Shown here piece after piece: positions 12,234-26,735 of a DNA stretch of 64,000 bases. Position 1 is the first letter of the stretch; every line of letters starts with the position of its first letter. The notes beneath the pieces were generated by a model, which searched no databases, was not told the origin of the DNA, and worked only from the letters and a program-made list of their open reading frames with translations. The DNA is from Pantoea sp. Lij88. GTDB taxonomy: Bacteria > Pseudomonadota > Gammaproteobacteria > Enterobacterales > Enterobacteriaceae. The stretch covers positions 2,170,001 through 2,234,000 of the forward strand of contig NZ_CP118269.1 of assembly GCF_030062155.1 (NCBI RefSeq), given 5' to 3'. The translations under genes and the position numbers were made by a program.

Positions 12234-13667
12234 TCACAGCAGGTGATGCTGCATGAGGAAATTCCACCAGGGAAGACCGAGAGTCATGTGCAGAATAAAG
12301 GTTAATAGCGTAATCACCGTTCCCGCGATCCACCACGATTTAATATCGTTATAACCTGCAGCAAAGATGATGGGCCCCGCTGCGCCCCCATAGTGGGTCA
12401 GGCTGCCGCCATAAGAGTTAGAAAAAAGAATCGCCAGCGCAAGAAGGACCGGCGCGGTTCCGGTCACCAGTCCCACGGTGGCTAATACCGGCACCATGGC
12501 AGCCACATAGGCACCGCCTGAAGCGAACAGATAGCGCACAGCCAGACTCAGAAAGACGATGATCACAATCGTGCTGTTGCCTGAACCGAGAAACGTGAGG
12601 TGGGACGACATGACCTCTGCCAGCCAGATGAATATCCCCTCTTTGCTTAACGTCGCGCTGAGTCCGATAATCCCTCCGTACCAGACCAGCGTATTCCAGC
12701 CGCCTTTATTCTGCAGAACATCATTCCAGCTGATGATATTAAAGATAAGTGCAGCCACCATCGCGATAACGGCCACCGCGGATTCGTTCAATCCCAGATC
12801 GTGAGAGAAAATCCATCCCAGCAACGCCGCAATAAAAACAATAATCAGCCCCTTCTCTTTGGGGCTGATGGGGCCCAGCGCGTTCAGTCCGTCAGTCGCA
12901 ATTTTAACGTTGTCTAATGCTTTTAATTCAGGACGCACGACGTTGTAGGTAATACAGGGGATGAGCGCAAGCATCACAAGCCCCAGCGGTACCCCAGCCA
13001 GCGCCCAGCCTGCCCAGCTGATCTGAATCTGGAAAATGTCAGAAATTAACTGAAGAGCTAAGGCATTTCCCGCAAAAGCCGTTAAAAACATATAGCTGGT
13101 GGTTTTGGTGATCATATAAACATTCACCATCAGAAACCGCCCGGCTTTACGCGGCGTCTCGCCAGGCGTTGAGCCCAGAGCCAGTGCAATGCTGTTGATG
13201 ATAGGAAAAACGACGCCACCTGCACGTGCGGTGTTGGAGGGGGTCGCCGGAGACAACATTAAGTCCAGCAGAGCGGTGACATAACCGAGCCGCAAAGTAG
13301 TAGAGCCAAACTTCAGAATAAACCCGTACGCCAGTCGTTTCCCTAATCCGGTCGTCACAAAAGCCGCACTCAGGGTAAATGCGCTAAAAACCAGCCATGT
13401 TGTTCCGGAGGCATAACCGCTCAGGACATCCAGCGATTTCAGCGGTGAATCATCAAATCTGGCTATCACACAACATGATAACGCCATAGCCACCAGCATG
13501 ATCACTGGCTCCGGGTAAGGCTTGCTCACCAGCCCGGCAATAGCCGCCAGATAGATGCCTGCCAGTATTGCCGCTTCTTTCGTTAATCCTGTGGGTGGCG
13601 GAAAAATGATGGGTAAAACGATAATCAAAAGAAGAAACGCTATTTTTGTTTTTTTTGCTGTCAACAT
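12234..13667 (-). CDS. DASS-family (CitT/TtdT-type) di/tricarboxylate transporter
   Basis: 477 residues, about 12 membrane segments, divalent anion:Na+/antiporter family. Family marks include LSPATPSNTARAGGVVFPI (the SNT motif of the first clamshell half) and NSYGGSLTHYGGAAGPI in the second half. The ATG at 13667 follows GGGGGATGT. It is the last gene of the twelve-gene operon, 100 bases after the aconitase gene. CitT, the E. coli relative, exchanges citrate for succinate; E. coli YbhI, next to the PrpF-like YbhH, is another. Likely imports the tricarboxylate used by this operon. Confidence 0.9.
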   Translation of the reverse strand: MLTAKKTKIAFLLLIIVLPIIFPPPTGLTKEAAILAGIYLAAIAGLVSKPYPEPVIMLVAMALSCCVIARFDDSPLKSLDVLSGYASGTTWLVFSAFTLSAAFVTTGLGKRLAYGFILKFGSTTLRLGYVTALLDLMLSPATPSNTARAGGVVFPIINSIALALGSTPGETPRKAGRFLMVNVYMITKTTSYMFLTAFAGNALALQLISDIFQIQISWAGWALAGVPLGLVMLALIPCITYNVVRPELKALDNVKIATDGLNALGPISPKEKGLIIVFIAALLGWIFSHDLGLNESAVAVIAMVAALIFNIISWNDVLQNKGGWNTLVWYGGIIGLSATLSKEGIFIWLAEVMSSHLTFLGSGNSTIVIIVFLSLAVRYLFASGGAYVAAMVPVLATVGLVTGTAPVLLALAILFSNSYGGSLTHYGGAAGPIIFAAGYNDIKSWWIAGTVITLLTFILHMTLGLPWWNFLMQHHLL

Positions 13668-13767
13668 ACATCCCCCAGTTAGCCGCACGTCCCTTGTCCG
13701 CAGACACCTCAGAAAGTCTTCTGCGGAACAGGAATGCGGTTCACTCTTCTCGGGTTAAAAGTCTTAA

Positions 13768-16377
13768 TTAAACGTTATGCCCGGCGAATTTTTTAATAAT
13801 CTTATCTTCATCCTGCGCTGACTGATATTGCGTCAACTGGTCGAAATTAAGGTAGCGATAGGTTTCGTCGCGGCTGCTATTCATTTTCTCCATGTGCCGC
13901 AGATACTCTTCAACCGTTGGCATTTTACCCATAATCGCCGCGACCGCGCTCAGTTCCGCTGAAGCCAGAAAAACGTGCGCATTTGTTCCTAAACGATGCG
14001 GGAAATTACGGGTTGAGGTGGAGACAACATGACTTCCCGGCCGCACGCGCGCCTGGTTACCCATGCAAAGCGAACATCCGGCAGGTTCGATTCTGGCTCC
14101 GGCCTGAATAAACTGACTAAAGTAGCCTTCGCTGGAGAGCTGCTGAGCATCCATTTTCGTTGGCGGCGCCAGCCAGAGTCTGGCAGGGAGCTCGGTGACA
14201 TCCGACAGAAGTTTACCGACGGCGCGAAAATGGCCAATGTTAGTCATGCAGGATCCCACGAACACTTCCTCAATCGGCGAACCTGCCACCGCGGAAAGCA
14301 GACGGGCATCGTCCGGGTCATCCGGCGCACAGACAACCGGTTCGGTAATCTCAGTCAGATCAATCTCAATCACAGCCGCATACTCAGCATTGTTATCCGC
14401 AACCAGAAGCGACGGGTTCGCCAGCCATGCCTCCATTTCCGCAATACGCCGCGCCAGCGTCGCGGCATGCTGATATCCCTGGTTTATCATCCAGCGCAAC
14501 AGCACGATATTAGAGCGCAGATACTCCGCCACATTCTCTTCCTCAAGACGGAGGACGCAGGCCGCCGCAGAACGTTCAGCAGAGGCATCGGCCAGCTCAA
14601 ACGCCTGCTCTGCTTTCAGGCTGTTCAGCCCTTCAATTTCCAGAATCCGGCCGGAGAAAATATTGACCTTATTTTTTTTCTCAACGGTCAGTAATCCCTG
14701 TCTGATGGCATAAAGCGGGATGGCGTGAACCAGGTCACGCAGGGTTATCCCTTTTTGCATTTCGCCGGTGAAACGTACCAGCACCGACTCCGGCATATCC
14801 AGTGGCATAATGCCGGTTGCGGCCGCGAAGGCGACCAGGCCGGAGCCGCCCGGAAAAGAGATCCCCAATGGGAAACGCGTGTGGGAGTCTGCGCCGGTGC
14901 CTACCGCATCGGGAATAAGCATACGATTGAGCCAGGAGTGAATGATACCATCGCCCGGCTTCAGCGCGACGCCCTTACGCTGGCTGATGAAATCAGGCAG
15001 CGTCTCATGCAGCAGGACATCGACCGGTTTAGGGTACGCGGAGGTGTGGCAAAAAGACTGCATAACCAGGTCGGCGGAAAAGCTCAGACAGGCCAGATCG
15101 GTCAGCTCGTCGCGCGTCATGCCGCCGGTGGTATCCTGCGAACCGACCGTTGAGACTTTCGGTTCACAATACTGGCCGGGCCGCACGCCATCCACGCCGC
15201 ATGCCCTTCCCACGATTTTCTGCGCCAGTGTAAATCCGGCTGCAGACGGTGCGGGTACCTGAGGCTTACAGAAGAGATCAGACGGAGGCAGTCCCAGCGA
15301 TTCACGCGCCCTCGCCGTCAGGCTTCGGCCAATGATCAACGGAATACGCCCCCCGGCGCGCACTTCATCAAGCAGCACTCCGGTCTTCAACGCGAATCGG
15401 GTAATCAGCTGCTGGCTGTGGGTGTCACGAATCTCTCCCTGATAAGGACAGAAGTCGATCAGCATGCCCGTTTCCAGCGCAGACACATCCATTTCAACCG
15501 GCAGCGCCCCCGAATCCTCCAGGGTATTGAAGAAGATCGGGGCAATTTTTCCGCCAAAAACAAAGCCCCCATTACGTTTATTCGGAACCCAGGGGATGTC
15601 GCTACCGATGTGCCACAAAACCGAGTTGGTCGCCGATTTGCGCGACGACCCGGTGCCTACCACATCCCCCACGAAGACCAGTGGATAGCCCGCTTTCTTC
15701 AGTTGCTCCAGTTGCCCGATGGGTCCCCGGCGTCCAGGCTCATCCGGTTCCACGCCGTCGCGCGGATTGCTCAGCATAGAGAGCGCATGCAGAGGAATAT
15801 CCGGACGTGACCAGGCCTCAGGCGCAGGTGACAGGTCATCCGTATTCGTTTCGCCTGTGACCCTGAAGACGGTAAGCGTAATAACATCAGGCAGCGCAGG
15901 ACGCCGCGTAAACCACTCCCCGCTGGCCCACGAATGAATAACGTCCTGCGCCCGGATATTACCCTGCTGCGCTTTTTCGACAACGTCGTTAAATTTTTCA
16001 AAAATAAGCAGCGTATGGCTTAACTGTTCCGCCGCGCACTCCGCCCATTGCGGATCGTCCAGCAAGTCGATGAGCGGTTGAATATTATATCCGCCCTGCA
16101 TGGTGCCCAGCAGTTCAATCGCTTTTTGTGGCGCAATCACTCCGCCTGCATTGCTGTTTTCGATCTGCTGATAAAGAAACTCTGCTTTAATTTTTGCGGC
16201 CGGATCAACACCCGGTGGAACGCAATGCGCTAACAGTTCAATGAGCCTGTTTTTATCCTCACCCTTTTCGCCCGTCAGCGCGGTAATTAACGCCCGGACT
16301 TGCTCAGCATTCAGAGGCTCAGGGGGAATGTTTTTTAAAGCACGCGCCTGCACATGCTTATTATAGTTTTCTAACAT
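13768..16377 (-). CDS. acnB: Aconitate hydratase B, operon-specific paralogue
   Basis: 869 residues, full-length AcnB architecture: N-terminal HEAT-like domain (1-160), swivelling domain with GDVVGTGSSRKSATNSVL (about 230-260), and the iron-sulphur domains. The [4Fe-4S] ligands are visible as GSCMTN and GCSLCMGNQ near the C-terminus; SDIPWVPNKRNGG and ADSHTRFPLG are conserved active-site stretches. Interconverts citrate, cis-aconitate and isocitrate. Because it sits within a citrate-lyase operon and differs noticeably from E. coli AcnB (for example in the N-terminal 60 residues), it is probably an extra copy beside the housekeeping acnB, which is not in this window. Confidence 0.93.
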   Translation of the reverse strand: MLENYNKHVQARALKNIPPEPLNAEQVRALITALTGEKGEDKNRLIELLAHCVPPGVDPAAKIKAEFLYQQIENSNAGGVIAPQKAIELLGTMQGGYNIQPLIDLLDDPQWAECAAEQLSHTLLIFEKFNDVVEKAQQGNIRAQDVIHSWASGEWFTRRPALPDVITLTVFRVTGETNTDDLSPAPEAWSRPDIPLHALSMLSNPRDGVEPDEPGRRGPIGQLEQLKKAGYPLVFVGDVVGTGSSRKSATNSVLWHIGSDIPWVPNKRNGGFVFGGKIAPIFFNTLEDSGALPVEMDVSALETGMLIDFCPYQGEIRDTHSQQLITRFALKTGVLLDEVRAGGRIPLIIGRSLTARARESLGLPPSDLFCKPQVPAPSAAGFTLAQKIVGRACGVDGVRPGQYCEPKVSTVGSQDTTGGMTRDELTDLACLSFSADLVMQSFCHTSAYPKPVDVLLHETLPDFISQRKGVALKPGDGIIHSWLNRMLIPDAVGTGADSHTRFPLGISFPGGSGLVAFAAATGIMPLDMPESVLVRFTGEMQKGITLRDLVHAIPLYAIRQGLLTVEKKNKVNIFSGRILEIEGLNSLKAEQAFELADASAERSAAACVLRLEEENVAEYLRSNIVLLRWMINQGYQHAATLARRIAEMEAWLANPSLLVADNNAEYAAVIEIDLTEITEPVVCAPDDPDDARLLSAVAGSPIEEVFVGSCMTNIGHFRAVGKLLSDVTELPARLWLAPPTKMDAQQLSSEGYFSQFIQAGARIEPAGCSLCMGNQARVRPGSHVVSTSTRNFPHRLGTNAHVFLASAELSAVAAIMGKMPTVEEYLRHMEKMNSSRDETYRYLNFDQLTQYQSAQDEDKIIKKFAGHNV

Positions 16378-16453
16378 GGTTTCTCCGAAACAGACATGAT
16401 TTATCCTACCAGGGGTTATGTAGTAACCTGTTTAATCCTGCTTTTAATTATCC

Positions 16454-17002
16454 TTAAAGACTTTCGCAAAATTCGGCCAGTTGCATCAGACCATATTCCC
16501 ATTCCCCGAATCCGGCCGCGGTATTAATATGTCCTGAATCGCCCGTATCAATAAGACGTGCGCCCCAGCATTCCGCCCAGAATTGCGCGCGTTTAAATGA
16601 CATAAGCGGATCGTTACGGCTCACCAGCATCACGCTGGGCGTATTCAGTTTTTCCGGCAGAACGCTATCCTCCAGTTCGAAAAGCGCGGGTTCTGCGGGG
16701 GCGACCAGGATGAGGCCTGCGATAGCCAGCTTTTGAGTCTGAACCAGCCGACATGCGGCAAGCGCCCCAAAACTATGCCCGACCAGAATAGCCGGATGCT
16801 GAGAGGTAAAGTGTTCACGACGGATAGCAGAGATCCAGCCATCAATATCGGGCTCCAGCCAGTTTCGCTGACGTATCCGTTTCCAGAGCGGAAAGCGCCG
16901 ATGCCAGCAACTTTGCCAGTGATCCTCATCGCTGTCTCTCAGTCCTGGCACCAGAATAACGGTGAGCTTTTCATCGATCTGTTCCAGACGATCTGTCGTC
17001 AT
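16454..17002 (-). CDS. RBBP9/YdeN-type alpha/beta hydrolase
   Basis: 182 residues, a short serine hydrolase. Nucleophile elbow GHSFG (Ser77), acid in SRNDPLM, and catalytic His in GDSGHINTAAGFG, matching the RBBP9/YdeN family (DUF1234). Substrate unknown. Located 29 bases after citG and 76 before acnB in the operon, so it may act on an activated intermediate, an ester of the carboxylate or a by-product. Its place in the proposed pathway is unexplained. Confidence 0.85.
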   Translation of the reverse strand: MTTDRLEQIDEKLTVILVPGLRDSDEDHWQSCWHRRFPLWKRIRQRNWLEPDIDGWISAIRREHFTSQHPAILVGHSFGALAACRLVQTQKLAIAGLILVAPAEPALFELEDSVLPEKLNTPSVMLVSRNDPLMSFKRAQFWAECWGARLIDTGDSGHINTAAGFGEWEYGLMQLAEFCESL

Positions 17003-17031
17003 TCCGCTTTACTCTCCATGTGCACGCTATC

Positions 17032-17904
17032 TCATGACGCCGGATAATGAGAAAGTAACCATCCAACCGCCAGAAGATCTGCGCTTCCTCCCGGACTCAG
17101 GTTTTTTTTAATAAAGGCGTGGTCCATATTTTTCAGCGCCGTTCTGAGCCTTTCGTCGGACAGATTTTTTATTTTCATCAGCCTTGTCGCGTAACGCCGG
17201 ACATATTCCAGGCCCGCTATTCCCCCGCGTGAAATCAGATTGGTATCGGAATTGGCGGCCATTAATGCCAGCAGCATCTTCAGCAACGCCTCTTCTTGTG
17301 TTCCCCCTTCACGCAGGGTTTTGTTCCACTGCGGCAGACCATAGCGCCTGACGGTCTCAAAGCCCCTCTCCGCCTCGCCGCGTGCGCCCGTGAAGCCAAA
17401 GGCCTGAAAAAATTCCTCTCCCCTGGTTTTTGCCCGCTCGTTTCTGCTGAGTTCTCTGTCGACCAGACCTGCGCACATTGCACGAACTTCCTGACAAAGC
17501 GTCTCCTGGCTGAGCCTGACGTTGTCTTTGGCGAGCCGCCCCGCAGCCGCGCACAGGAGACCCAGAGAAAAAATCCCGCCTTTGTGTGTATTGATGCCGC
17601 CGGTGGCTTTAAACATCGCCTGTTCACACGCCAGCCCTGTTGGTCTTATCGCCAGTAAGGTCTGGCGAGCAGGTAAGCCGGCAGTGGCGAATCCCTGATC
17701 ATAAAAACGGGGAAACCAGGGTGAGATAGCGCGAAGACTGACCATAAAGTGCATGATAGTCATGTCACGATGCGCCCCGTTATTTTCGCTATCCACCAGG
17801 CCCGGCTTAGGGGTTAACTTAACTTCTCTGTGCATCGCCTGGGCTGCCAGCCACGCGATATTCCGGTCACGCTCAGACTTAATGCTGACCGCTGAAATAG
17901 TCAT
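17032..17904 (-). CDS. citG: Triphosphoribosyl-dephospho-CoA synthase CitG
   Basis: 290 residues. Makes 2'-(5''-triphosphoribosyl)-3'-dephospho-CoA, the precursor of the citrate lyase prosthetic group. Family segments: LTPKPGLVDSENNGAHRDM near the N-terminus, GGINTHKGGIFSLGLL in the middle, and NLSPGGSADLLAVGWLL at the end. A separate gene here, overlapping citX by 26 bases (in some bacteria the two are fused). Confidence 0.95.
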   Translation of the reverse strand: MTISAVSIKSERDRNIAWLAAQAMHREVKLTPKPGLVDSENNGAHRDMTIMHFMVSLRAISPWFPRFYDQGFATAGLPARQTLLAIRPTGLACEQAMFKATGGINTHKGGIFSLGLLCAAAGRLAKDNVRLSQETLCQEVRAMCAGLVDRELSRNERAKTRGEEFFQAFGFTGARGEAERGFETVRRYGLPQWNKTLREGGTQEEALLKMLLALMAANSDTNLISRGGIAGLEYVRRYATRLMKIKNLSDERLRTALKNMDHAFIKKNLSPGGSADLLAVGWLLSHYPAS

Positions 17905-18427
17905 AGGTTAAATCCTCTATCACCTGCGCAAGTTCATTCTGAGAATGGCGGCGCATACGCGAGCAGACGTGCGCAGGTTCATGACAAATGAAGCACCTGC
18001 GCATGGGCTGATGTATCGCGCTGCGCTTGAGTAAGCCCGACGTGGGACAAAACACATCAATGTCCCACAGCCGCCCAAGCGGATGGTTATCCTCCAGATG
18101 GGCCATAACATGCTTAATCATCCAGGCCGGTGACGAAATGGACCACCGCGCCTCGGGGCCGGTGCAGAGAAAGTCGGTTTCATGCCGGGTGACCGGCCAT
18201 CGGTGTTTCAGCAGCGACTGATTGATGGCCTCATTCGCCTCGGCCATGACACGTCGGGCAAGAGGGGTATCTTTTATCTCCCCTGGCCAGACGAGGGTCA
18301 CAGAGACCATCGTCTGGCCATACTGGCCCAGCCACTGTTGCTGCAGGCGCGCGCGTGCCTCTCTGGCTTTCAGCACATCCTCAAGAGCAAGACGCATACA
18401 CGATGCCTCTGCCGTTTCCCGGCTCAC
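17879..18427 (-). CDS. citX: Holo-ACP synthase CitX
   Basis: 182 residues. Transfers the phosphoribosyl-dephospho-CoA group to the citrate lyase acyl carrier protein CitD. Visible family stretches: LEDVLKAREARARLQQQWL, the LWDIDVF segment and CFICHEPAHVCSRMRRHS near the C-terminus. Its start overlaps the citF stop by 4 bases and its end overlaps citG, so the three are translationally coupled. Confidence 0.95.
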   Translation of the reverse strand: MSRETAEASCMRLALEDVLKAREARARLQQQWLGQYGQTMVSVTLVWPGEIKDTPLARRVMAEANEAINQSLLKHRWPVTRHETDFLCTGPEARWSISSPAWMIKHVMAHLEDNHPLGRLWDIDVFCPTSGLLKRSAIHQPMRRCFICHEPAHVCSRMRRHSQNELAQVIEDLTYDYFSGQH

Positions 18428-19944
18428 TCTTTCACCTGCCTGACCACATCAATGACGCTGCCATCGCGATACCGCACAACGCCCACGATGCGGGAAGTAA
18501 ACGCAATCGGCTTAGGTTCACCCGAAATGAGCAGCGCTTTCTGATAGAGTGTCCCGATATCCACCACCGGCAGACCGGCGGCGATCAGGCGCGCTTTCAC
18601 CTCCTGTCGGGCAGGATTTACAGCAATACCGTGGTCGGTAACCAGTACGTCAACGCTCTCGCCTGGGGTGACGCGCGTGGTGACCTGCCTGACTACGGTA
18701 GGAATGCGGCTGCGGATAAGAGGCGCCACCACGATGGTCAGATTAGCTGCGGCGGCCACGTCACAATGTCCGCCAGAGGCGCCGCGCATCACCCCGTCGG
18801 AGCCGGTCAGCACGTTCACATTGAAGTCGGTATCGATTTCCAGCGCGCTTAAGATGACGATATCAACACGATCGCAGCAGGCAGCTTTCGCGGCAGGATT
18901 GGCATAAACGCTGGTGGAGATTTCAACATGATCAGGATTTTTCGCCAGCGAAGCTCCCGCAGCCCCGTCAAAACTCTGGGTATCCAGCAGCTTTTTAATC
19001 AGCCCTTTTTCATGCAGATCCACAATGCTGCCAGTGATGCCGCCCAGGGCAAAGCTGGCCACAATGTTCTGTTTCCGCATCCGTGATTCCAGAAAACGGG
19101 TGCAGGCCGTTGAGGCCGCACCGGAACCCGTTTGCAGCGAAAAACCGTCGCGGAAAAAGCCGGAATGCTCGATCACATCGGCGGCAGAACGCGCAATCAT
19201 CAGCTCACGCGGATTACTGGTGACGCGCGCCGCACCGACGCTGATCTTTGCCGGATCGCCTACGCTGTCGATTTTGACAATGTAATCCACCTGATCCTGA
19301 ATAATGCTGGCGGGCATATACGGGAACGGCTCAATGCTCTCCGTCAGCAGCACCACCTTTCTGGCATATTTTGCATCAACCATCGCATAACCCAGCGAAC
19401 CGCAACGGGACAGGCCGCCGCTGCCGCTGGCATTGCCATATTCATCGCAGCAGGAGACGGCTAAAAAGGCGACATCAATAGTGATTTCGCCCTTTTCAAT
19501 CAGGTTGACTCTGCCGCCATGCGAGTGGATCTCTACCGGCTCTGCCATCAGGCCATGTGAAATCGCTTCGGCTAATTCACCCCGCATGCCGGAGGTGTAG
19601 ATTTTGGTGATGACGCCGGCTTTGATGTGTTCAATCAGTGGCGCGTTGCAGGTCATTAACGAGCTGGATGCCAGCGTCAGTCCCTTAAGGCCCTTTTCTG
19701 CCAGCTTCGCCATGACGTAATTAATGACTTTGTCACCTTCACGGAAGGCGTGATGAAAGGAGACCGTCATACCATCACGTAATGCGCAGCGGGCCAGAAC
19801 CTCATCAACCGTGTCAAAAAGTTTGCGCTGATATTTCTGGCGGCGATCTGCAAGATAAGGGGTCTGCGTGTTGGCACCGGTAAAAGGTTCATACTGCCGT
19901 GCGTTGCCGGACAGCGTCTGCAGGGCTTCAATTAAATGGCTCAT
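18424..19944 (-). CDS. citF: Citrate lyase alpha subunit (citrate:acetyl-ACP transferase)
   Basis: 506 residues, E. coli length about 510. CoA-transferase-like subunit that exchanges the acetyl on CitD for citrate. Family segments: MTVSFHHAFREGDKVINYVM, EIHSHGGRVNLIEKG, and the glycine-rich GSDGVMRGASGGHCDVAAAA near residue 390. Third enzyme gene of citCDEFXG, 32 bases after citE. Confidence 0.97.
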   Translation of the reverse strand: MSHLIEALQTLSGNARQYEPFTGANTQTPYLADRRQKYQRKLFDTVDEVLARCALRDGMTVSFHHAFREGDKVINYVMAKLAEKGLKGLTLASSSLMTCNAPLIEHIKAGVITKIYTSGMRGELAEAISHGLMAEPVEIHSHGGRVNLIEKGEITIDVAFLAVSCCDEYGNASGSGGLSRCGSLGYAMVDAKYARKVVLLTESIEPFPYMPASIIQDQVDYIVKIDSVGDPAKISVGAARVTSNPRELMIARSAADVIEHSGFFRDGFSLQTGSGAASTACTRFLESRMRKQNIVASFALGGITGSIVDLHEKGLIKKLLDTQSFDGAAGASLAKNPDHVEISTSVYANPAAKAACCDRVDIVILSALEIDTDFNVNVLTGSDGVMRGASGGHCDVAAAANLTIVVAPLIRSRIPTVVRQVTTRVTPGESVDVLVTDHGIAVNPARQEVKARLIAAGLPVVDIGTLYQKALLISGEPKPIAFTSRIVGVVRYRDGSVIDVVRQVKE

Positions 19945-19976
19945 GGTTTAATCCTGTTGTTCTGGGCTGAATGCAG

Positions 19977-20855
19977 CTACTGACGAACGCCGGAAGCGTT
20001 TTTACGTTCAATCACGACACGGGCATGGTTAATGATTGGCGCATCGATCATTTTTCCGTTCAGTGAAATCACCCCCAGCCCATGACGATCCCCCTCTTCG
20101 GCCGCTGCAATCACGCGCTCTGCGTAATCGACCTCTTCCTGAGTGGGCGCGTAGGCATTGTGCAGAATTTCAATCTGTCGTGGATTGATCAGCGATTTGC
20201 CGTTAAAGCCCATACGCTTAATCAGATCGACCTCTTTTAAAAAACCCGCTTCATCGTCAATGTCGGCATACACCACATCAAAGGCATCAATCCCTGCGCC
20301 GCGCGCAGCATGCAATACCGCGCAGCGCGCATAAAAAAGCTCGGTGCCGTCGCCACGTTCCGTCTGCATATCCATCACGTAATCAAATGCCGCCAGCGCA
20401 ATACCCATTAATCGCGGCGACGATTTAGCAATAGCCACCGCATTAATAACGCCGACCGCCGATTCAATCGCCGCCATCAGTCTGGTCGAACCGACAGGAC
20501 GTCCACACTCCGCCTCAATGCGGGCAATTTCCCCTTCAAGCTGATAAATATCATCCGGCGTGTCGGTTTTAGGTAAGCGAATAACGTCGACGCCCGCGCG
20601 TACCGCTGCTTCGGTATCTTTCAGCCCAAAAGGCGTATTCAGCGGATTAATCCTGACCACCGTTTCAATATCTTTATACATGGGATGCTGTAACGCATGA
20701 AAAACCAGCAAACGTGCGCTGTCTTTTTCTTTTAGTGAAACGGCATCTTCCAGATCAAACATAATGGAGTCAGGGCGATAGATAAAAGCTGTTGAGAGCA
20801 TTGCGGCACTTGAACCGGGTAAAAAAAGCATGCTGCGACGTAATTTCTTCATCAT
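19977..20855 (-). CDS. citE: Citrate lyase beta subunit (citryl-ACP lyase)
   Basis: 292 residues from ATG 20855, which overlaps the citD stop as ATGA. The frame extends further upstream inside citD, but the overlap start gives the family N-terminus [15 protein letters not shown]. Cleaves citryl-ACP to oxaloacetate and acetyl-ACP. TIM-barrel marks: MFDLEDAV (Mg ligands), [26 protein letters not shown], and [10 protein letters not shown]. The protein is a little shorter than E. coli CitE because the N-terminal extension is missing. Confidence 0.96.
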
Positions 20856-21142
20856 AGTTTTTCCCACGCAATTTCTTTGCTCTCTGTTCCACGCAATATC
20901 GCCGTCTGCATTCTGGCCCGGATAACACAATTCAGCGCGCCTTTATCTTCGACAATAATTTCTCCCTGCGTAATATTAAAAGCAGAAAGTGTTTCTTTCA
21001 CCACGGCAGTAATCTGCTCGCCAAATTGTTTGTAAACTTCGCTGTTAACAGTAATATCCAGCCCGTCTTCAGCCGGGCTGACTTTGACAACCAGATCGCT
21101 GGATTCAAGCGTACCGGCTATGGCCGCCTTAACTATTTTCAT
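20852..21142 (-). CDS. citD: Citrate lyase gamma subunit (acyl carrier protein)
   Basis: 96 residues. Carries the phosphoribosyl-dephospho-CoA arm; the attachment Ser14 is in AGTLESSD. The acetyl thioester is made by CitC. Ends 4 bases into citE and lies 21 bases after citC. Confidence 0.96.
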
Positions 21143-21163
21143 TTTAATTTCCTGGACAGTAAA

Positions 21164-22243
21164 TTATCCGACGTTTGCCAGATTGTAGTCTGACTGTTTA
21201 AAGGGGTGACGTGACAGCCATCGGATTAAAAATGGCAGCGTGGTGGCTGGCACCATTCGTGTAACCGCCTCCATATCATTTCTCTCTAATGACTTTCTTA
21301 CCGCAGAGGCCGATATCGGAAGGTTATTCTCATCCGTCACTCTGGTTATTTCGTTAACTTTAATCGGGGCTTCTGCCATTATCGTTTCATCTTCCAGCCA
21401 GTGATGCATCGCAAAATTATATTGCGCGGTGACTTTACAAAAAGGCTCGGTTCCCACAAAGCGCTGCCGGATATTTAACGCAGGCGCGATGTGGCGACGG
21501 AACAGCATTAAATCGATAGCGGCATAGACCTCATTAACAATCTGCTTTTCTTTGAGAAAGTAGCCAGGAAAGGTTCCCCGCGAAATAATATATCGGGAGC
21601 CGGGATGAACCGTGACATTAGGTAAATGACGTGAGCCCTCCTTTACCATGGCTAAACGATCCTGAAAGGAGAACGTCGACAAATCTTCCTCGACCACAAA
21701 GATATGAAGCCAGTCGCAGGCTTTTGCCGCCTGCTCAATCAGATAAAAATGCCCGGAGGTAAACGGATTGGCATTCATCACAATCGCGCCAACGTTGCTG
21801 ACGTTAACCTGGTGATGTTTACGCAGCTTCCTGCAGTAGTGATGGATGCCCACAGGCGTGTTCTCCATCAGTGTGGCCCGGTTATCGAGTGTCACCAGAG
21901 GATAAAAACCGCATCCCCGGAAGGCTTTCACATTGCAGGGCGTGGTCAGGAGAAAAAGCTGATGCTCGCCATTCTGAATCGCCTGCGCCTCCGCTTCGTG
22001 AATCACTTTCAGACCCAGCGAGGTGCTGCGCCAGGCGGCATCCACAGCGATGCACTTTAACGTACTCCCGGCAATCCCTGCACAGGCCACCAGATGGCGT
22101 TTACAGCGCGCAATGACGAACTGTTCGATATCATCATCCATACCCAGTCCATTACTCTTAAGAAACAGGGCAATCTCTTCTCGCAGAGTCCCGCTGTGCG
22201 TTTCAACCGTTTCAAACGTCAGCGACGGGTCGCTATACATCAT
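21164..22243 (-). CDS. citC: Citrate lyase synthetase (acetate:citrate-lyase ligase) CitC
   Basis: 359 residues. N-terminal GNAT-like domain (about 1-140) and C-terminal nucleotidyltransferase domain with IVMNANPFTSGHFYLIEQAA, holding the H-x-G-H-like nucleotide motif (here SGHFYL), and a late ISASAVRKSL equivalent to ISSTxVR. Activates apo-lyase by acetylating the prosthetic thiol with ATP and acetate. First gene of the cit set proper, 50 bases after the FAH-family gene. Confidence 0.95.
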   Translation of the reverse strand: MMYSDPSLTFETVETHSGTLREEIALFLKSNGLGMDDDIEQFVIARCKRHLVACAGIAGSTLKCIAVDAAWRSTSLGLKVIHEAEAQAIQNGEHQLFLLTTPCNVKAFRGCGFYPLVTLDNRATLMENTPVGIHHYCRKLRKHHQVNVSNVGAIVMNANPFTSGHFYLIEQAAKACDWLHIFVVEEDLSTFSFQDRLAMVKEGSRHLPNVTVHPGSRYIISRGTFPGYFLKEKQIVNEVYAAIDLMLFRRHIAPALNIRQRFVGTEPFCKVTAQYNFAMHHWLEDETIMAEAPIKVNEITRVTDENNLPISASAVRKSLERNDMEAVTRMVPATTLPFLIRWLSRHPFKQSDYNLANVG

Positions 22244-22293
22244 GTTTCTCCTGAAAATATCTGATGATCACCTCCTCCCGTACCTGCCGGAAA

Positions 22294-23157
22294 TCAGGAT
22301 GCCTGCAGATCGTGCTGCGGATCTGACTCCACAATCGTATTGGTTAAGTGCCCGATATTTTCAATCACGACGTCGACCTGGTCGCCTTCGTACATAAAGA
22401 GTGGCGGCGTACGTTTTTTGCCGACGCCCCCCGGAGAGCCGGTAATAATGACATCACCGGCATTGAGTGAAGTGAAGGTGCTGATGTAGCTAATCAGGTC
22501 GGCAACCTTATGGATCATACTGCCGGTGGAATCATCCTGAACCAGCCTGCCATTGAGCCAGGTCTGAATCGACAGCGCATGGGGATCCGGGATTTCATCC
22601 GCCGTCGTCATGCAGGGCCCGAAAGCGCCAGTATGGGGCCAGTTTTTCCCGGCGGTGAACCAGGCATGCTGCCAGTCCCGCACAGAGCCATCCATGTAGC
22701 AGCTGTAGCCAGCCACATGCTGCATGGCATCACTTGCGGCGATATTGATACCCGGCTTGCCAATAATGACGGCCAGCTCTCCTTCATAATCAAATTCGTT
22801 TGATAAGGCGGGTTTGACGACCGGTGTCGCATGACCCGTCTGCGAGTCAGGAAAACGAATAAACAGCGTGGGGGCATCACAGGTTTCCGCAAACTCCCTG
22901 CGTTTCTCCGCATAATTCATGCCGACACAAAATATCTTCTCTGGCACTTCAATGACGGGCAGAAAAATAATATCACTCGCCATGACATCGACAGGATAGT
23001 CCTGATATTGCCGGGCAATGTCGATCGCATCCTGCTGAAGCAAGGCTTTCAGGTCAGGACAGAGATGACCCATTTTCTCACCCAGATCGATAATGCCGTT
23101 CTCAGTAAAAATACCGTAGCTTTTATGACCGTGATGGCTGTAGCTGGTTAATTTCAT
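22294..23157 (-). CDS. Fumarylacetoacetate hydrolase-fold enzyme, possible oxaloacetate decarboxylase
   Basis: 287 residues. N-terminal small domain, then the FAH catalytic domain (about 75-285). Metal-binding acids are visible in NEFDYEGELAVIIGK and MDGSVRDWQ; the C-terminal ITGSPGGVG and YEGDQVDVVIENIGHL are typical. The superfamily includes acylpyruvases, decarboxylases and hydratases; FAHD1-type members decarboxylate oxaloacetate. Directly upstream of citC in an operon that makes oxaloacetate, and with no OadGAB pump genes nearby, an oxaloacetate decarboxylase role is an attractive inference; hydrolysis of an acylpyruvate is the alternative. Confidence 0.85.
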   Translation of the reverse strand: MKLTSYSHHGHKSYGIFTENGIIDLGEKMGHLCPDLKALLQQDAIDIARQYQDYPVDVMASDIIFLPVIEVPEKIFCVGMNYAEKRREFAETCDAPTLFIRFPDSQTGHATPVVKPALSNEFDYEGELAVIIGKPGINIAASDAMQHVAGYSCYMDGSVRDWQHAWFTAGKNWPHTGAFGPCMTTADEIPDPHALSIQTWLNGRLVQDDSTGSMIHKVADLISYISTFTSLNAGDVIITGSPGGVGKKRTPPLFMYEGDQVDVVIENIGHLTNTIVESDPQHDLQAS

Positions 23158-23235
23158 AATAAAACCTGCTTGTCGTATTTAATGCTTTCGGGTTCACGCC
23201 GTGTAATACGGCGTGAACAATCGTTTATTCTGCTG

Positions 23236-24477
23236 CTATTTCAGCGGTGCGACGGGGACCAGCTTCTTTTGTTCATTGCCGGATAGTGATGTCGCGACAA
23301 CCGCAGCCACCACAAGCAGTGTAATAATAAAGCCGGTCATTCCATGCCAGCCGGTGGCGTGGAAAACAAGGCCATTGACGAAGCCAATCAGTGAACCGCC
23401 CATGTAGTAGAAGAAAAGATAGAGCGCAACGGCCTGACCACGGGCGTGGGTGGCATTCTTACTGACCCACCGCAGACCAATAGAGTGACAACCAAAGAAG
23501 CATCCTGTGAAAATGACCGCGCCGACAATAAAGACGACAACGTTATCCACCAGCGTCAGCAGCATCCCCAGGGCCATGATGGCGAAGAGCGTTCTGAGCA
23601 CATTCATGCTGCCATATTTTTCGGCAAAGCGGCCGGCCTGAGGCGCAGTAAAGAAACTCAACGCAAAGCTGAAGGAGATCAGGCCCGCATTGGCATGAGA
23701 GATATTGAACGGTTCGCCTTTCAGGAAGAAGGCCAGATAGTTATAGAGCGACGTGAAGACACCAAAGATGATGAAGCTGATAATAAATACCCGGGAGAGA
23801 TTTTTGTTTTTAAAATGCTCAGCCGCGCCCTTCACGACACACAGAACGTTGAGGTTTTCCGTCGGCTTAAAGTTTTTGGAGGCTGGCAGCAGAAAGTTAA
23901 CCAGAATCGCGACGACGATCAGGCTGACGGCAAAACCGTAGAAAATGGTATTGATTGAAATATGGTCAATCAGCTGGCTGGCAATAATACGACCGGACAT
24001 GCCGCCCATCGAGTTCCCAAACACAAAGTAGCCGGTGACCACTCCCGCGACAACGGGCGCGACCTCCTCACTGATATAGGCGGTTGCCGCTGCAGCAATG
24101 CCACTGAGTGCCAGCCCGATGACTGCACGCAGTGCCACTAACAGTGTCCAGGATTGCGCCAGCGGACAAAGCAGGGTCAATATCCCGCCCAGTAGCAGAG
24201 AAACGATAATCAGTTTTTTTCTGCCATAGTGATCGGCTAAGGTTCCGGTAAATAGCAGGCCGAACGCCAGCATTGCCGTCTCTGCGGAGAGAATGATACT
24301 GACCTGACTGACAGGAATATCATATTCAATCGCCAGAACCGGCAGCAGCGGCTGAATAAAGAACAGAGAGGCTAATTCGGCCAGTCCGGATAAAGCCAGT
24401 GCCAGAATAATACGAATGTAAGCACTGGCTTTAATCTCACCCGCGGGTTTGGTTTGTTTATCGGTAGTTATAGTCAT
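23236..24477 (-). CDS. MFS transporter, YnfM-like
   Basis: 413 residues, 12 membrane segments. MFS motif A is visible as GTLADHYGRKK after segment 2. General resemblance is to the YnfM-type drug/metabolite permeases. Second gene of the operon, 83 bases after the PrpF-like gene and 78 before the FAH gene. Together with the DASS protein at the far end this gives the operon two transporters, one plausibly for uptake and one for product or substrate exchange. Confidence 0.88.
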   Translation of the reverse strand: MTITTDKQTKPAGEIKASAYIRIILALALSGLAELASLFFIQPLLPVLAIEYDIPVSQVSIILSAETAMLAFGLLFTGTLADHYGRKKLIIVSLLLGGILTLLCPLAQSWTLLVALRAVIGLALSGIAAAATAYISEEVAPVVAGVVTGYFVFGNSMGGMSGRIIASQLIDHISINTIFYGFAVSLIVVAILVNFLLPASKNFKPTENLNVLCVVKGAAEHFKNKNLSRVFIISFIIFGVFTSLYNYLAFFLKGEPFNISHANAGLISFSFALSFFTAPQAGRFAEKYGSMNVLRTLFAIMALGMLLTLVDNVVVFIVGAVIFTGCFFGCHSIGLRWVSKNATHARGQAVALYLFFYYMGGSLIGFVNGLVFHATGWHGMTGFIITLLVVAAVVATSLSGNEQKKLVPVAPLK

Positions 24478-24560
24478 AACATCCTCATTACTATTTTGGG
24501 TACAGGGCGCTATAGCCCGTATGACCTAAATTTTTTATTTAATAGTTCAGGAGGGGGTAA

Positions 24561-25649
24561 TTAAATTGCTTCTGAAATAGCCGCATCCGGAACGCAGACG
24601 ACGCCTTCAAAAAGTTTCCGGCACGTTCTGATGACAGCGGCCCGTGTCTTTTCAATTTCATTGCTCTCGTTGGTTAACGAAACAGAAATTTTTCCGCCGG
24701 GATGTTCAATATCAATAATACTGGTGTACGTTGTCTTAGGCTGTCCTGAAATAATCTTCCAGGCTACAGAGCCTTCAATCCGTGTTGCTGTAGAAATACC
24801 AATGGATCCGGTAATCGCCAGCGATCGGTGGCAGGCATGCGGCATAAAGTAACGGACGTTAATGGTACCACCCGCCTGGGGTTTGCTCAGAAGGACCGGC
24901 TTAGGGATCACTTTGTCAGAGACGTCACCGAACCCCATCGCTCTGCCAGCCTGACGACGGATATGCTCCAGACGCGTCATAAATGCGCGGTCAGATTCCA
25001 GCTCTGCCGGTTGCTCAAAACCCGTTTTACCCAGCTGTGCAGCCTCGATAAGTACCATTGGCATGGCCATATCAATGCAGGTCACCTCTGCCTCGTCGAT
25101 GCGATCGATGACGTTACCGGTTGGCAGTAGTTTTCCGGTCTTACAGCCGGCAGAATTAAGGAATGTAAGTCCTACAGGGGCTGCAGCACCCGGCACGCCA
25201 TCAATGTGGGTGTCGCCTTCATAACTCACAAGAAGATCCGGTGTCTGGACTTCAGCATCAACCAGAGTACCGGTGTTGAGGTTGCGAATACGCACGGTGG
25301 TGACGGGACTTTTTGCGCTGACCAGCCCCTTTTCAATGGCGAAAGGTCCTACAGCACACAGCATGTTTCCGCAGTTGGGTGTGGTATCAACACGTCGCTC
25401 GTTGACCATGACCTGTACGAACAGATAGTCAACATCTGCATCGGAACAGGTTGACGGGCTGACGATAGCGACTTTGCTGGTCTGGGGACTTCCTCCGCCA
25501 ATCCCATCAATTTCGAGTTCATGACCTGCACCCATCAGACTAAGCAGCACGGCATCGCGCTCCTCAATGTTATCGGGCAAGTCGCTGGCCAGAATAACCG
25601 GTCCTTTAGATGTACCGCCACGCATTAGTACGCAAGGAATCTTCAGCAT
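24561..25649 (-). CDS. PrpF/GalD-family isomerase (candidate aconitate isomerase or 4-oxalomesaconate tautomerase)
   Basis: 362 residues, two-domain diaminopimelate epimerase-like fold. Family marks: LMRGGTSKGPVI at the N-terminus, TPNCGNMLCAVGPFA with one likely catalytic Cys, and SAGCKTGKLLPTGN with the other. Close relatives isomerise C=C bonds of carboxylates: GalD (4-oxalomesaconate), PrpF (2-methylaconitate; trans-aconitate has been bound in its structure). E. coli YbhH sits beside YbhI (DASS) and YbhJ (aconitase-like) with divergent LysR YbhD, a parallel arrangement. In this context trans- to cis-aconitate isomerisation is the preferred inference. First gene of the operon. Confidence 0.9.
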   Translation of the reverse strand: MLKIPCVLMRGGTSKGPVILASDLPDNIEERDAVLLSLMGAGHELEIDGIGGGSPQTSKVAIVSPSTCSDADVDYLFVQVMVNERRVDTTPNCGNMLCAVGPFAIEKGLVSAKSPVTTVRIRNLNTGTLVDAEVQTPDLLVSYEGDTHIDGVPGAAAPVGLTFLNSAGCKTGKLLPTGNVIDRIDEAEVTCIDMAMPMVLIEAAQLGKTGFEQPAELESDRAFMTRLEHIRRQAGRAMGFGDVSDKVIPKPVLLSKPQAGGTINVRYFMPHACHRSLAITGSIGISTATRIEGSVAWKIISGQPKTTYTSIIDIEHPGGKISVSLTNESNEIEKTRAAVIRTCRKLFEGVVCVPDAAISEAI

Positions 25650-25733
25650 GTTGTTTTCTCATTTCGCCTGGTGATAAGAACAGCGTCAAGATTCCACAGC
25701 ATGATCAGGAATTCTAATGTCTAATTTCACGTC

Positions 25734-25756
25734 ATTAATACGCTTTACGCATAAAT
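25734..25756. promoter_or_regulatory. Candidate LysR operator in the divergent region
   Basis: Imperfect dyad ATTAATACG-N5-CGCATAAAT (7 of 9 arm positions pair) in the 159-bp gap between the isomerase gene and the LysR gene. Position and AT-rich interrupted dyad fit a LysR-type recognition site, but no experimental consensus for this regulator is available. Confidence 0.4.
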
Positions 25757-25808
25757 ACCCGCTGGGTTAGTGTGGGTGAAATAAAATAACGATAAGGCGT
25801 AAAATTTA

Positions 25809-26735
25809 ATGCAGCATGAACTTCAGGGCATACAAGCTTTTGTTAAAATTGCAGAAATCGGATGTTTTACAAGAGCATCTCACTTCCTTCACATTTCACA
25901 ACCTGCGTTAACACGCAGAATTAAAAAACTTGAGGAAAGTCTGGGGACGGTATTATTTGAACGTTCAACAAGAAAGATAAAACTCACCGCGGTTGGCAGA
26001 GAGTTTTTACCTAAGGCAAAGAATTTAATCGATTTCTATGAAAGTTCGATTCTGAATATTAAGGAGATGGCCACACACCAGAGCGGGTTTATTACGTTAT
26101 CCTGTCTGCCTACCGCCGCATTCTACTTTCTGCCTTCCGCGATCAAAGATTATAACAATCACTACCCTAACATTCGTATTCGAATTCTGGAGCACACTGC
26201 CAGCGACTGTCTTGAAGCAGTGCTAAATGGCGATGCAGATTTCGGCATAAATATGATAAACATCACACATCCAAATATCGATTTTACTGCGCTGGTGAAT
26301 GAACCCTTTGTTCTGGCCTGCCGTCGCGATCACCCACTGGCACAAAAGCAGCTGGTTTCGTGGCAGGATCTGGCGGGTTTAACGCTGATTGGTGTCCGGC
26401 GTTCAAGCGGTAACCGGTCGCTGATTGACCAGGCGCTGGAGGAGGTGGCGTTTAAGCCAGACTGGTTTTACGAAGTCAGGCATCTCTCCACCTCGCTCGG
26501 CATGGTAGAAGCAGGTCTGGGGGTTGCGGTGGTGCCGAATCTGGCGATGCCACTGAATGAACACCACATTCTGGTCAGTCGTCCGCTGGTTGAGCCGGTT
26601 ATCCGGCGAACGCTGGGTCTCGTTCAGCGGCGGGAAACGGTGCTCAGTCCGGCCGCTGAAAAGTTCAGAGAACGACTCTTACAACTCTGGTCTCAGGAAG
26701 CCAACAGCCCCTGGATTGGTAAGTTCACTAACTGA
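25809..26735 (+). CDS. LysR-type regulator of the tricarboxylate operon
   Basis: 308 residues. N-terminal winged HTH (IAEIGCFTRASHFLHISQPALTR then RIKKLEESLG), C-terminal effector-binding domain with the GLGVAVVPNLAMP segment. Divergent from the twelve-gene operon with a 159-bp shared region, the standard arrangement for a LysR activator responding to a pathway substrate. E. coli YbhD occupies the equivalent place next to ybhH. The 5' third is visibly more AT-rich than the rest of the gene. Confidence 0.9.
   Translation: MQHELQGIQAFVKIAEIGCFTRASHFLHISQPALTRRIKKLEESLGTVLFERSTRKIKLTAVGREFLPKAKNLIDFYESSILNIKEMATHQSGFITLSCLPTAAFYFLPSAIKDYNNHYPNIRIRILEHTASDCLEAVLNGDADFGINMINITHPNIDFTALVNEPFVLACRRDHPLAQKQLVSWQDLAGLTLIGVRRSSGNRSLIDQALEEVAFKPDWFYEVRHLSTSLGMVEAGLGVAVVPNLAMPLNEHHILVSRPLVEPVIRRTLGLVQRRETVLSPAAEKFRERLLQLWSQEANSPWIGKFTN

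Follow-up and report, generated by a model that had tools for sequence, protein, structure and literature searches.

A predicted twelve-gene operon has been analysed in a 64,000-nucleotide stretch of the genome of Pantoea sp. Lij88 (NZ_CP118269.1, positions 2,170,001 to 2,234,000); the whole stretch is referred to below as the window, and the genome, of 4.74 Mb, as G000. Among described systems, the fermentation of trans-aconitate by Acidaminococcus fermentans, which runs via citrate, oxaloacetate and pyruvate (PMC3035267, citing Hartel and Buckel 1996), has the order of steps proposed here, and citrate lyase and aconitase genes are listed for it; A. fermentans is, however, a Firmicute, its genes lie at several loci, and in the part of that paper covered no isomerase is named and no such operon described. 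The tar operon of Bacillus velezensis (tarR opposite tarA-tarB; PMC11495376) has a divergent LysR gene, a PrpF-family isomerase gene first and an MFS carrier gene next, and this tar-type layout was found in the window as well. The tar operon nevertheless has three genes, delivers its product to the tricarboxylic acid (TCA) cycle and includes no citrate lyase, AcnB, FAH or DASS gene, TarA being compared here by description.

The ybh locus of E. coli (ybhD opposite ybhH-ybhI-ybhJ) likewise joins a LysR gene, YbhH (62% identical to the window PrpF-like protein), a DASS-type carrier and an aconitase-family protein, but it has no citrate lyase or FAH gene and its aconitase is of the YbhJ type; ybhH is up in a ybhD deletion and a link to L-malate has been suggested (PMC9068703). 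Citrate fermentation clusters (that of K. aerogenes; in K. pneumoniae citS-oad genes and citDEFG) share the cit core and, in the K. aerogenes type, an FAH gene, but have CitAB-type regulators and CitS-type carriers and no PrpF, AcnB or DASS gene. Beside the operon there is no adjacent citAB and no CitS-type carrier; a LysR gene and MFS and DASS carriers are present instead. Finally, the GalD/LigU tautomerases resemble the window PrpF-like protein in fold, catalytic Lys and Cys and NCBIfam model, but form a separate group with gallate-type neighbours. The pathway is thus known in A. fermentans, and the operon is a variant of citrate-lyase and aconitate-isomerase systems. The original prediction, made from the window letters and their open reading frames, knew of no description of this exact operon; our literature search agrees, having found no title or abstract opening that describes it, with most subscription journals outside its coverage.

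The operon consists of 12 open frames, all on the minus strand, at 12234-25649 of the window, with a LysR gene opposite at 25809-26735 (plus strand). From the LysR gene downwards the features are:

25809..26735, plus strand: LysR-type regulator, divergent from the operon; 56% identical to E. coli YbhD
24561..25649, minus strand: PrpF-superfamily, YbhH-like protein, predicted aconitate isomerase; Lys59 and Cys93 correspond to SoPrpF K73 and C107
23236..24477, minus strand: MFS carrier, predicted trans-aconitate or tricarboxylate importer
22294..23157, minus strand: FAH-fold protein from a subfamily linked mostly to citrate lyase, predicted oxaloacetate decarboxylase/tautomerase; Glu125, Glu127, Asp156 and Lys171 kept, Lys85 in place of His
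21164..22243, minus strand: citC, citrate lyase ligase; NCBIfam 379.3, cut-off 262.1
20852..21142, minus strand: citD, citrate lyase acyl carrier protein; NCBIfam 109.4, cut-off 63.5; Ser14 present
19977..20855, minus strand: citE, citrate lyase beta subunit; NCBIfam 462.7, cut-off 443.4
18424..19944, minus strand: citF, citrate lyase alpha subunit; NCBIfam 730.7, cut-off 501.45
17879..18427, minus strand: citX, holo-ACP synthase; NCBIfam 174.2, cut-off 105.25
17032..17904, minus strand: citG, triphosphoribosyl-dephospho-CoA synthase; NCBIfam 337.1, cut-off 272.3
16454..17002, minus strand: RBBP9-like alpha/beta serine hydrolase (PF06821); Ser77, Asp131, His158
13768..16377, minus strand: second AcnB, predicted to convert cis-aconitate to citrate; TIGR00117 1387.7, cut-off 1287.2; Cys710, Cys768, Cys771
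12234..13688, minus strand: DASS-family anion carrier, predicted tricarboxylate import or exchange

In gene order the gaps are 83, 78, 50, 21, -4, 32, -4, -26, 29, 76 and 82 bases, taking the citE ATG at 20855 and the DASS start at 13685 (the listed DASS frame starts at 13688). The head-to-tail arrangement of twelve genes opposite a LysR gene that had been proposed is therefore confirmed, with gaps from -26 to 83 bases, and from this spacing alone the twelve genes would form one transcript.

It is somewhat probable, in our view, that this conserved cluster is a trans-aconitate catabolic operon. The MFS carrier, the DASS carrier or both would import trans-aconitate, a plant acid, and the LysR protein would sense the substrate; the YbhH-like PrpF would convert trans-aconitate to cis-aconitate. 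Hydration of cis-aconitate by the second AcnB would yield citrate, citrate lyase would split this into acetate and oxaloacetate, and pyruvate would arise from oxaloacetate through decarboxylation by the FAH-fold enzyme. Such a route could run without oxygen. The aconitase and citrate lyase steps rest on established family functions. The original prediction had set out the same route, which is likely in outline, and the fit of its enzymes and the linkage of PrpF and of FAH to citF speak for it; its substrate, direction, carrier specificity and FAH reaction are, here as there, what we infer. Absent from that prediction were the score of the isomerase above the GalD cut-off, the closely related ybhD/ybhHIJ locus of E. 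coli, the RBBP9-like gene behind citrate lyase genes in Azospirillum and the known pathway of A. fermentans.

The citrate lyase set is complete, with citC, citD, citE, citF, citX and citG each above its NCBIfam equivalog cut-off and with Ser14 of CitD, which we take to be the prosthetic-group serine, in place; cleavage of citrate by the window CitDEF is predicted from these established family functions. At E 1e-100 the only citF in G000 is the operon copy, and a search for oadB at E 1e-60 found none there. The second AcnB that had been noticed is indeed an extra copy: the housekeeping acnB lies at G000:C3:3267074-3269641, its product is 67% identical to the operon AcnB, and the two have in common motifs together with Cys710, Cys768 and Cys771, presumably the cluster-ligand cysteines. 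Two acnB genes are present in 9/9 genomes examined with the operon (eight) or the G197 layout described below (one), since the cluster itself carries one, and a single acnB in 3/3 others. For the MFS carrier no NCBIfam cut-off was reached among the 25 best matches listed. It is very improbable that the substrate is instead a substituted relative such as 2-methylaconitate or hydroxycitrate; the AcnB and PrpF families do also process methylated analogues (PMC5690661), but CitE, CitF and AcnB of the window pass citrate/aconitate equivalog cut-offs, though the AcnB model also covers 2-methylisocitrate, and the cluster includes no propionate-type gene.

The first gene product had been called a PrpF-family isomerase, which holds for the superfamily and not for the label: it scores 185 bits against the PrpF model TIGR02334, short of the cut-off of 440.55, and among solved structures E. 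coli YbhH (6otv) comes nearest to it. In a tree of 44 PrpF rows, which came with long-branch warnings, a branch (96/92) sets apart the 16 operon proteins and six rows outside any group, which come from Pseudomonas, Providencia and an uncultured bacterium. LigU clusters with the gallate-type proteins (97/94), and the YbhH proteins form a group of their own (97/94). Cis- and trans-aconitate are interconverted by SoPrpF, in which K73 is essential (PMC5690661). The YbhH-like PrpF is a candidate aconitate isomerase for Enterobacterales. Two results for this protein tell against that assignment. It exceeds the cut-off of 440 of the 4-oxalomesaconate tautomerase model NF033377 (OMA_tautomer), with 512.5 bits; and Lys59 and Cys93, which align with K73 and C107 of SoPrpF, are conserved in 44/44 PrpF rows, the GalD-like ones included, so that these residues neither separate substrates nor indicate aconitate. 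A role of the protein as 4-oxalomesaconate tautomerase, in an operon for some aromatic-derived tricarboxylate, is also consistent with the scores for an aromatic-acid MFS carrier and an HpcE-type FAH, both below cut-off. We nevertheless regard it as highly doubtful: the protein falls outside the LigU/gallate-cluster group (97/94), none of the 26 less similar PrpFs in the survey below is near citF, and citrate lyase and AcnB have no known role in the 4-oxalomesaconate route. The neighbours differ as well, those at the five gallate-type loci examined including RraA-like aldolase, PIG-L, amidohydrolase, DUF1932 or tannase genes. On the separate grouping and these neighbours, GalD function was rejected as the principal explanation, and a trans-aconitate operon is preferred.

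The linkage of PrpF to citrate lyase was assessed in 295 genomes drawn evenly from the family, in which a PrpF search at E 1e-60 gave 55 loci in 52 genomes; FAH, oadB, DASS and PrpF genes were searched at strict E-values, so that distant relatives beside citF would escape. A citF gene lies within 10 kb of 16/29 YbhH-like PrpF loci (at least 58% identity), and within 20 kb of 17/29, as against 0/26 less similar PrpF loci (16/29 vs 0/26, Fisher p 2.5e-6); it must be held against this evidence that these counts, like the FAH-citF counts and the citF tree below, are of related genomes and not of independent events. A DASS gene lies within 15 kb of 24/29 YbhH-like PrpF loci, and an FAH gene within 10 kb of 4/26 less similar ones. 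Eleven of the 16 citF-adjacent PrpF loci are the FAH-bearing operon. Other arrangements are a LysR gene opposite PrpF-citX-DASS-citCDEF-citG-AcnB, on a different citF lineage (G197); citCDEFXG-DASS-PrpF with no acnB seen (G388 and G317); and citCDEFXG followed by a PrpF of 36-37% identity and DASS (G198 and G423). The starred branches of the citF tree demand no fewer than 2 changes of the operon label; the remaining PrpF-linked clusters, which make up five rows with the distant PrpF type in two of them, demand no fewer than 3. This indicates that the pairing of PrpF and citrate lyase arose or re-formed several times. The citF of the Prodigiosinella operon belongs to the stock of PrpF-free FAH-cit clusters (99/99), a placement that recombination between the two cit clusters of that genome could also explain.

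The existence of PrpF-free FAH-cit clusters bears on another explanation, namely that the operon serves the use of citrate, isocitrate or cis-aconitate and that the PrpF-like isomerase merely rescues trans-aconitate formed as a side-product, shielding aconitase. Citrate lyase, AcnB and the carriers would be enough for citrate and cis-aconitate, and trans-aconitate does inhibit aconitase (PMC11495376). PrpF is, however, the first gene of the operon and adjoins the divergent LysR gene, and in 7/11 operon genomes a second citF with FAH lies elsewhere, away from PrpF, so that the PrpF version looks specialised. We therefore judge this explanation unlikely and keep to trans-aconitate as the preferred substrate.

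The FAH gene is tied to one kind of citrate lyase. Among the citF genes of at least 71% identity, FAH lies within 10 kb in 65/66 and oadB within 20 kb in 0/66; among the other 72, FAH is present in 1 (together with oadB) and oadB in 10. Of 139 citF rows 138 were counted, since the citF of G393 is split and its second piece was dropped. The 65/66 reflects shared cluster descent and not 65 separate events; in the citF tree a branch of 89/80, short of starred support, sets the FAH-linked rows apart. Counted from the FAH side, 66/111 loci are near citF, rising to 62/64 among those of at least 64% identity. In K. aerogenes the annotation gives citrate carrier-FAH-citCDEF beside citA/citB, where K. 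pneumoniae has oad genes with citS. In one citF group the FAH gene takes the place of that for the Na+-pump oxaloacetate decarboxylase, which suggests a route of oxaloacetate disposal in bacteria that lack the pump.

Present in the window FAH are the acids Glu125, Glu127 and Asp156, matched to what we take to be the metal-site positions of FAHD1, and the catalytic Lys171. FAHD1 presumably also carries the His of the His-Glu pair; in the window protein the His of the NYxxHxxE motif (HpcE, 8sky) is replaced by Lys85, as it is by Lys in 30/34 aligned rows, and for this reason the protein is not filed as an FAHD1-type enzyme. A role for the catalytic Lys of FAHD1 is described in PMC12176266. We infer that the FAH protein decarboxylates or tautomerises oxaloacetate and does not act as a hydrolase. 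The change of His to Lys was considered as a signature specific to citrate-linked FAH proteins and was ruled out, being shared by three plasmid FAH genes away from cit genes.

In the PrpF-free FAH-cit clusters L118-L123 and L138, FAH stands directly before citC, the position of the oad genes in K. pneumoniae. A CitA-like kinase and a CitS-type carrier are established in L123 (by profile) and L138 (by annotation) only, and the label citAB on the citF tree is to be read likewise; at L138 (2656-4022) the annotation of K. aerogenes NCTC10006 divides citA into several pieces. A K. pneumoniae plasmid (L152, 2576-8766) carries, between IS elements, a cassette MFS-leuC-leuD-FAH-alpha/beta hydrolase-LysR, in which an aconitase-family enzyme stands beside FAH.

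The FAH-cit genes also occur together with an RBBP9-like hydrolase gene elsewhere. Among the 20 best matches listed for the RBBP9-like protein, only two plasmid records exceed 50%, both from Azospirillum and both with a close citF. On the Azospirillum thermophilum plasmid (L140, 2158-13317) the order is malic enzyme-FAH-citCDEFXG-RBBP9-like-2-hydroxycarboxylate carrier, with the hydrolase gene directly after citG; the FAH-cit-hydrolase unit thus crosses classes, to an alphaproteobacterial plasmid. Citrate lyase deacetylase is known as an activity, and we know of no report of its gene; the RBBP9-like protein is a speculative candidate.

The original prediction had pointed to a search of genomes for the same gene set, and such a search finds the layout again across many enteric genera. 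When named genomes were scanned and their genes mapped, PrpF was followed by MFS in 17/27 loci, counting L004-L030 only, with the operon order kept as far as the stretches reach; none of the 17 extends to the DASS gene, three (L007, L008 and L022) end at contig ends and the remaining 14 continue into acnB. The 17 carriers are Pantoea anthophila, Enterobacillus, Mixta, Klebsiella michiganensis, Enterobacter (three), Phytobacter (two), Kosakonia (three), strain LSJC7, Citrobacter werkmanii, Raoultella, Prodigiosinella and Dickeya; the layout is also present in Celerinatantimonas (L050). The RBBP9-like gene is absent from the operons of Prodigiosinella (L021) and Celerinatantimonas. By coordinates, a DASS gene is found in 7/11 operon genomes at the threshold used; in longer stretches DASS ends the operon in L133-L135, unlike in L136 and L137. 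Pantoea anthophila has the closest PrpF (90%) in the named-genome scan, from which near-identical records may be omitted, and its strain LMG 2558 has the operon at least from PrpF through acnB.

Outside the operon, a LysR gene and an operon-type PrpF gene (77%) with no adjoining cit genes were seen on a plasmid of Providencia sp. R33 (L097, 7918-10089) and on Providencia chromosomes (L019, 8919-11089); the pair looks like a relocated operon fragment. Pseudomonas chlororaphis (L024, 8940-13901, the one Pseudomonas locus annotated downstream) has a YbhH-like PrpF gene (69%) opposite LysR, followed by genes for DctA- and CitMHS-type carriers, and is possibly a citrate-lyase-free trans-aconitate locus.

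Several further points weigh against a trans-aconitate catabolic operon. Within the genus of the window a PrpF of at least 81% is found in only 4/61 genomes, so that the operon is patchy there. PrpF lies by citrate lyase in G388, G317, G279 and G461, and no acnB was seen in the two of these clusters that were mapped (L124, L125); G461 has a citrate-lyase-DASS-PrpF cluster yet a single acnB genome-wide, which shows that a dedicated acnB is not constant. The Prodigiosinella operon AcnB is 80% identical to the G000 housekeeping copy and 67% to the window operon copy, but the AcnB tree does not require more than one origin and does not fix how many times acnB was recruited. FAH loci away from citF number 45/111, and 4/111 are near a GalD-like PrpF; beyond the citrate-linked members, the FAH family thus has partners of other kinds. 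Citrate lyase usually belongs to anaerobic routes, whereas cis-aconitate could simply enter the TCA cycle. In K. pneumoniae, where groups range from 0 to 100% trans-aconitate-positive and five of seven are at least 88% positive (PMC2656620), the one record searched lacks the operon, its sole PrpF being GalD-like and its cit cluster of the oad type; the operon is therefore not needed for the trait and other routes exist. Use of trans-aconitate is reported for isolates of P. agglomerans, S. marcescens and Providencia rettgeri; those of the first two species have no TarA homologue, and the one of P. rettgeri ('AI-79') has very low activity (PMC11495376).

Enterobacter pasteurii is trans-aconitate-positive (PMC10783019) and Cronobacter is positive or negative by species (PMC4179279). 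In a literature search for trans-aconitate tests of operon-bearing species, the term trans-aconitate was absent from the matches listed. A set of 219 isolates use trans-aconitate for growth and 19 also produce it, the producers including Pantoea (n=3; P. anthophila and P. dispersa named), Serratia (6), Enterobacter (1), Citrobacter (1) and Providencia (2); one Bermuda-grass isolate of P. anthophila both uses and makes it (PMC13188880).

Release of trans-aconitate in citrate medium is documented for enteric isolates, P. anthophila among them (PMC13188880), and the pairing of PrpF with a carrier gene resembles tbrAB (PMC11495376). The operon could on this basis be one for production, in which AcnB and PrpF would make trans-aconitate from citrate and the MFS carrier would export it as an antifeedant or nematicide, as in the tbr operon of B. 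thuringiensis. Against this, citrate lyase and FAH would drain citrate, the DASS and LysR genes suggest uptake and sensing of a substrate, and assimilation performance and yield show no correlation (PMC13188880); production is, we think, decidedly unlikely, and catabolism is again preferred.

Enteric use and production of trans-aconitate have been reported without a convincing isomerase gene in the available text (PMC11495376, PMC13188880), and the operon offers a candidate enzyme, carriers and a regulator. A testable role is also suggested for YbhH, YbhI and YbhJ of E. coli; a distant-mode search matched the PrpF/LysR stretch in 5334/5426 complete E. coli genomes, with ybhH and ybhD annotated in the five matches listed. 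Taken jointly, the catabolic genes could have been assembled more than once, with YbhH-type proteins as the missing aconitate isomerases of Enterobacterales and Pseudomonas, the FAH subfamily as a soluble oxaloacetate decarboxylase replacing the sodium pump in bacterial citrate fermentation, the RBBP9-like protein as the citrate lyase deacetylase and E. coli ybhHIJ as a citrate-lyase-free form; that all of this should hold together is rather doubtful.

Counts of consensus promoters and terminators in the window were not above those in shuffles, and a tRNA scan and an Rfam gathering search of the window gave no match. Two further elements were found in the operon region:

23192..23218, minus strand: covarying hairpin in the MFS-FAH gap, conserved in the window and in L004-L007 and L009-L018
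25733..25757, no strand assigned: conserved AT-rich element ATTTATGCGTAAAGCGTATTAAT (operon sense), candidate LysR site, from 14 aligned LysR/PrpF intergenic regions

In 15 operons 97.8% of 135 cells of the hairpin pair, and 17 cells have two-sided changes; of 500 shuffles none was as high on four of five measures, and 92/500 were on the fifth (further pair types). The hairpin was rejected as an intrinsic terminator, there being no T-run behind it in the operon sense. It may balance the isomerase and importer genes upstream against the FAH-cit genes, and is possibly an element for processing or stabilising the mRNA. The coordinates of the AT-rich element, which lies in the intergenic region 25650-25808, were counted by hand from the alignment; LysR-type sites take the form T-N11-A.

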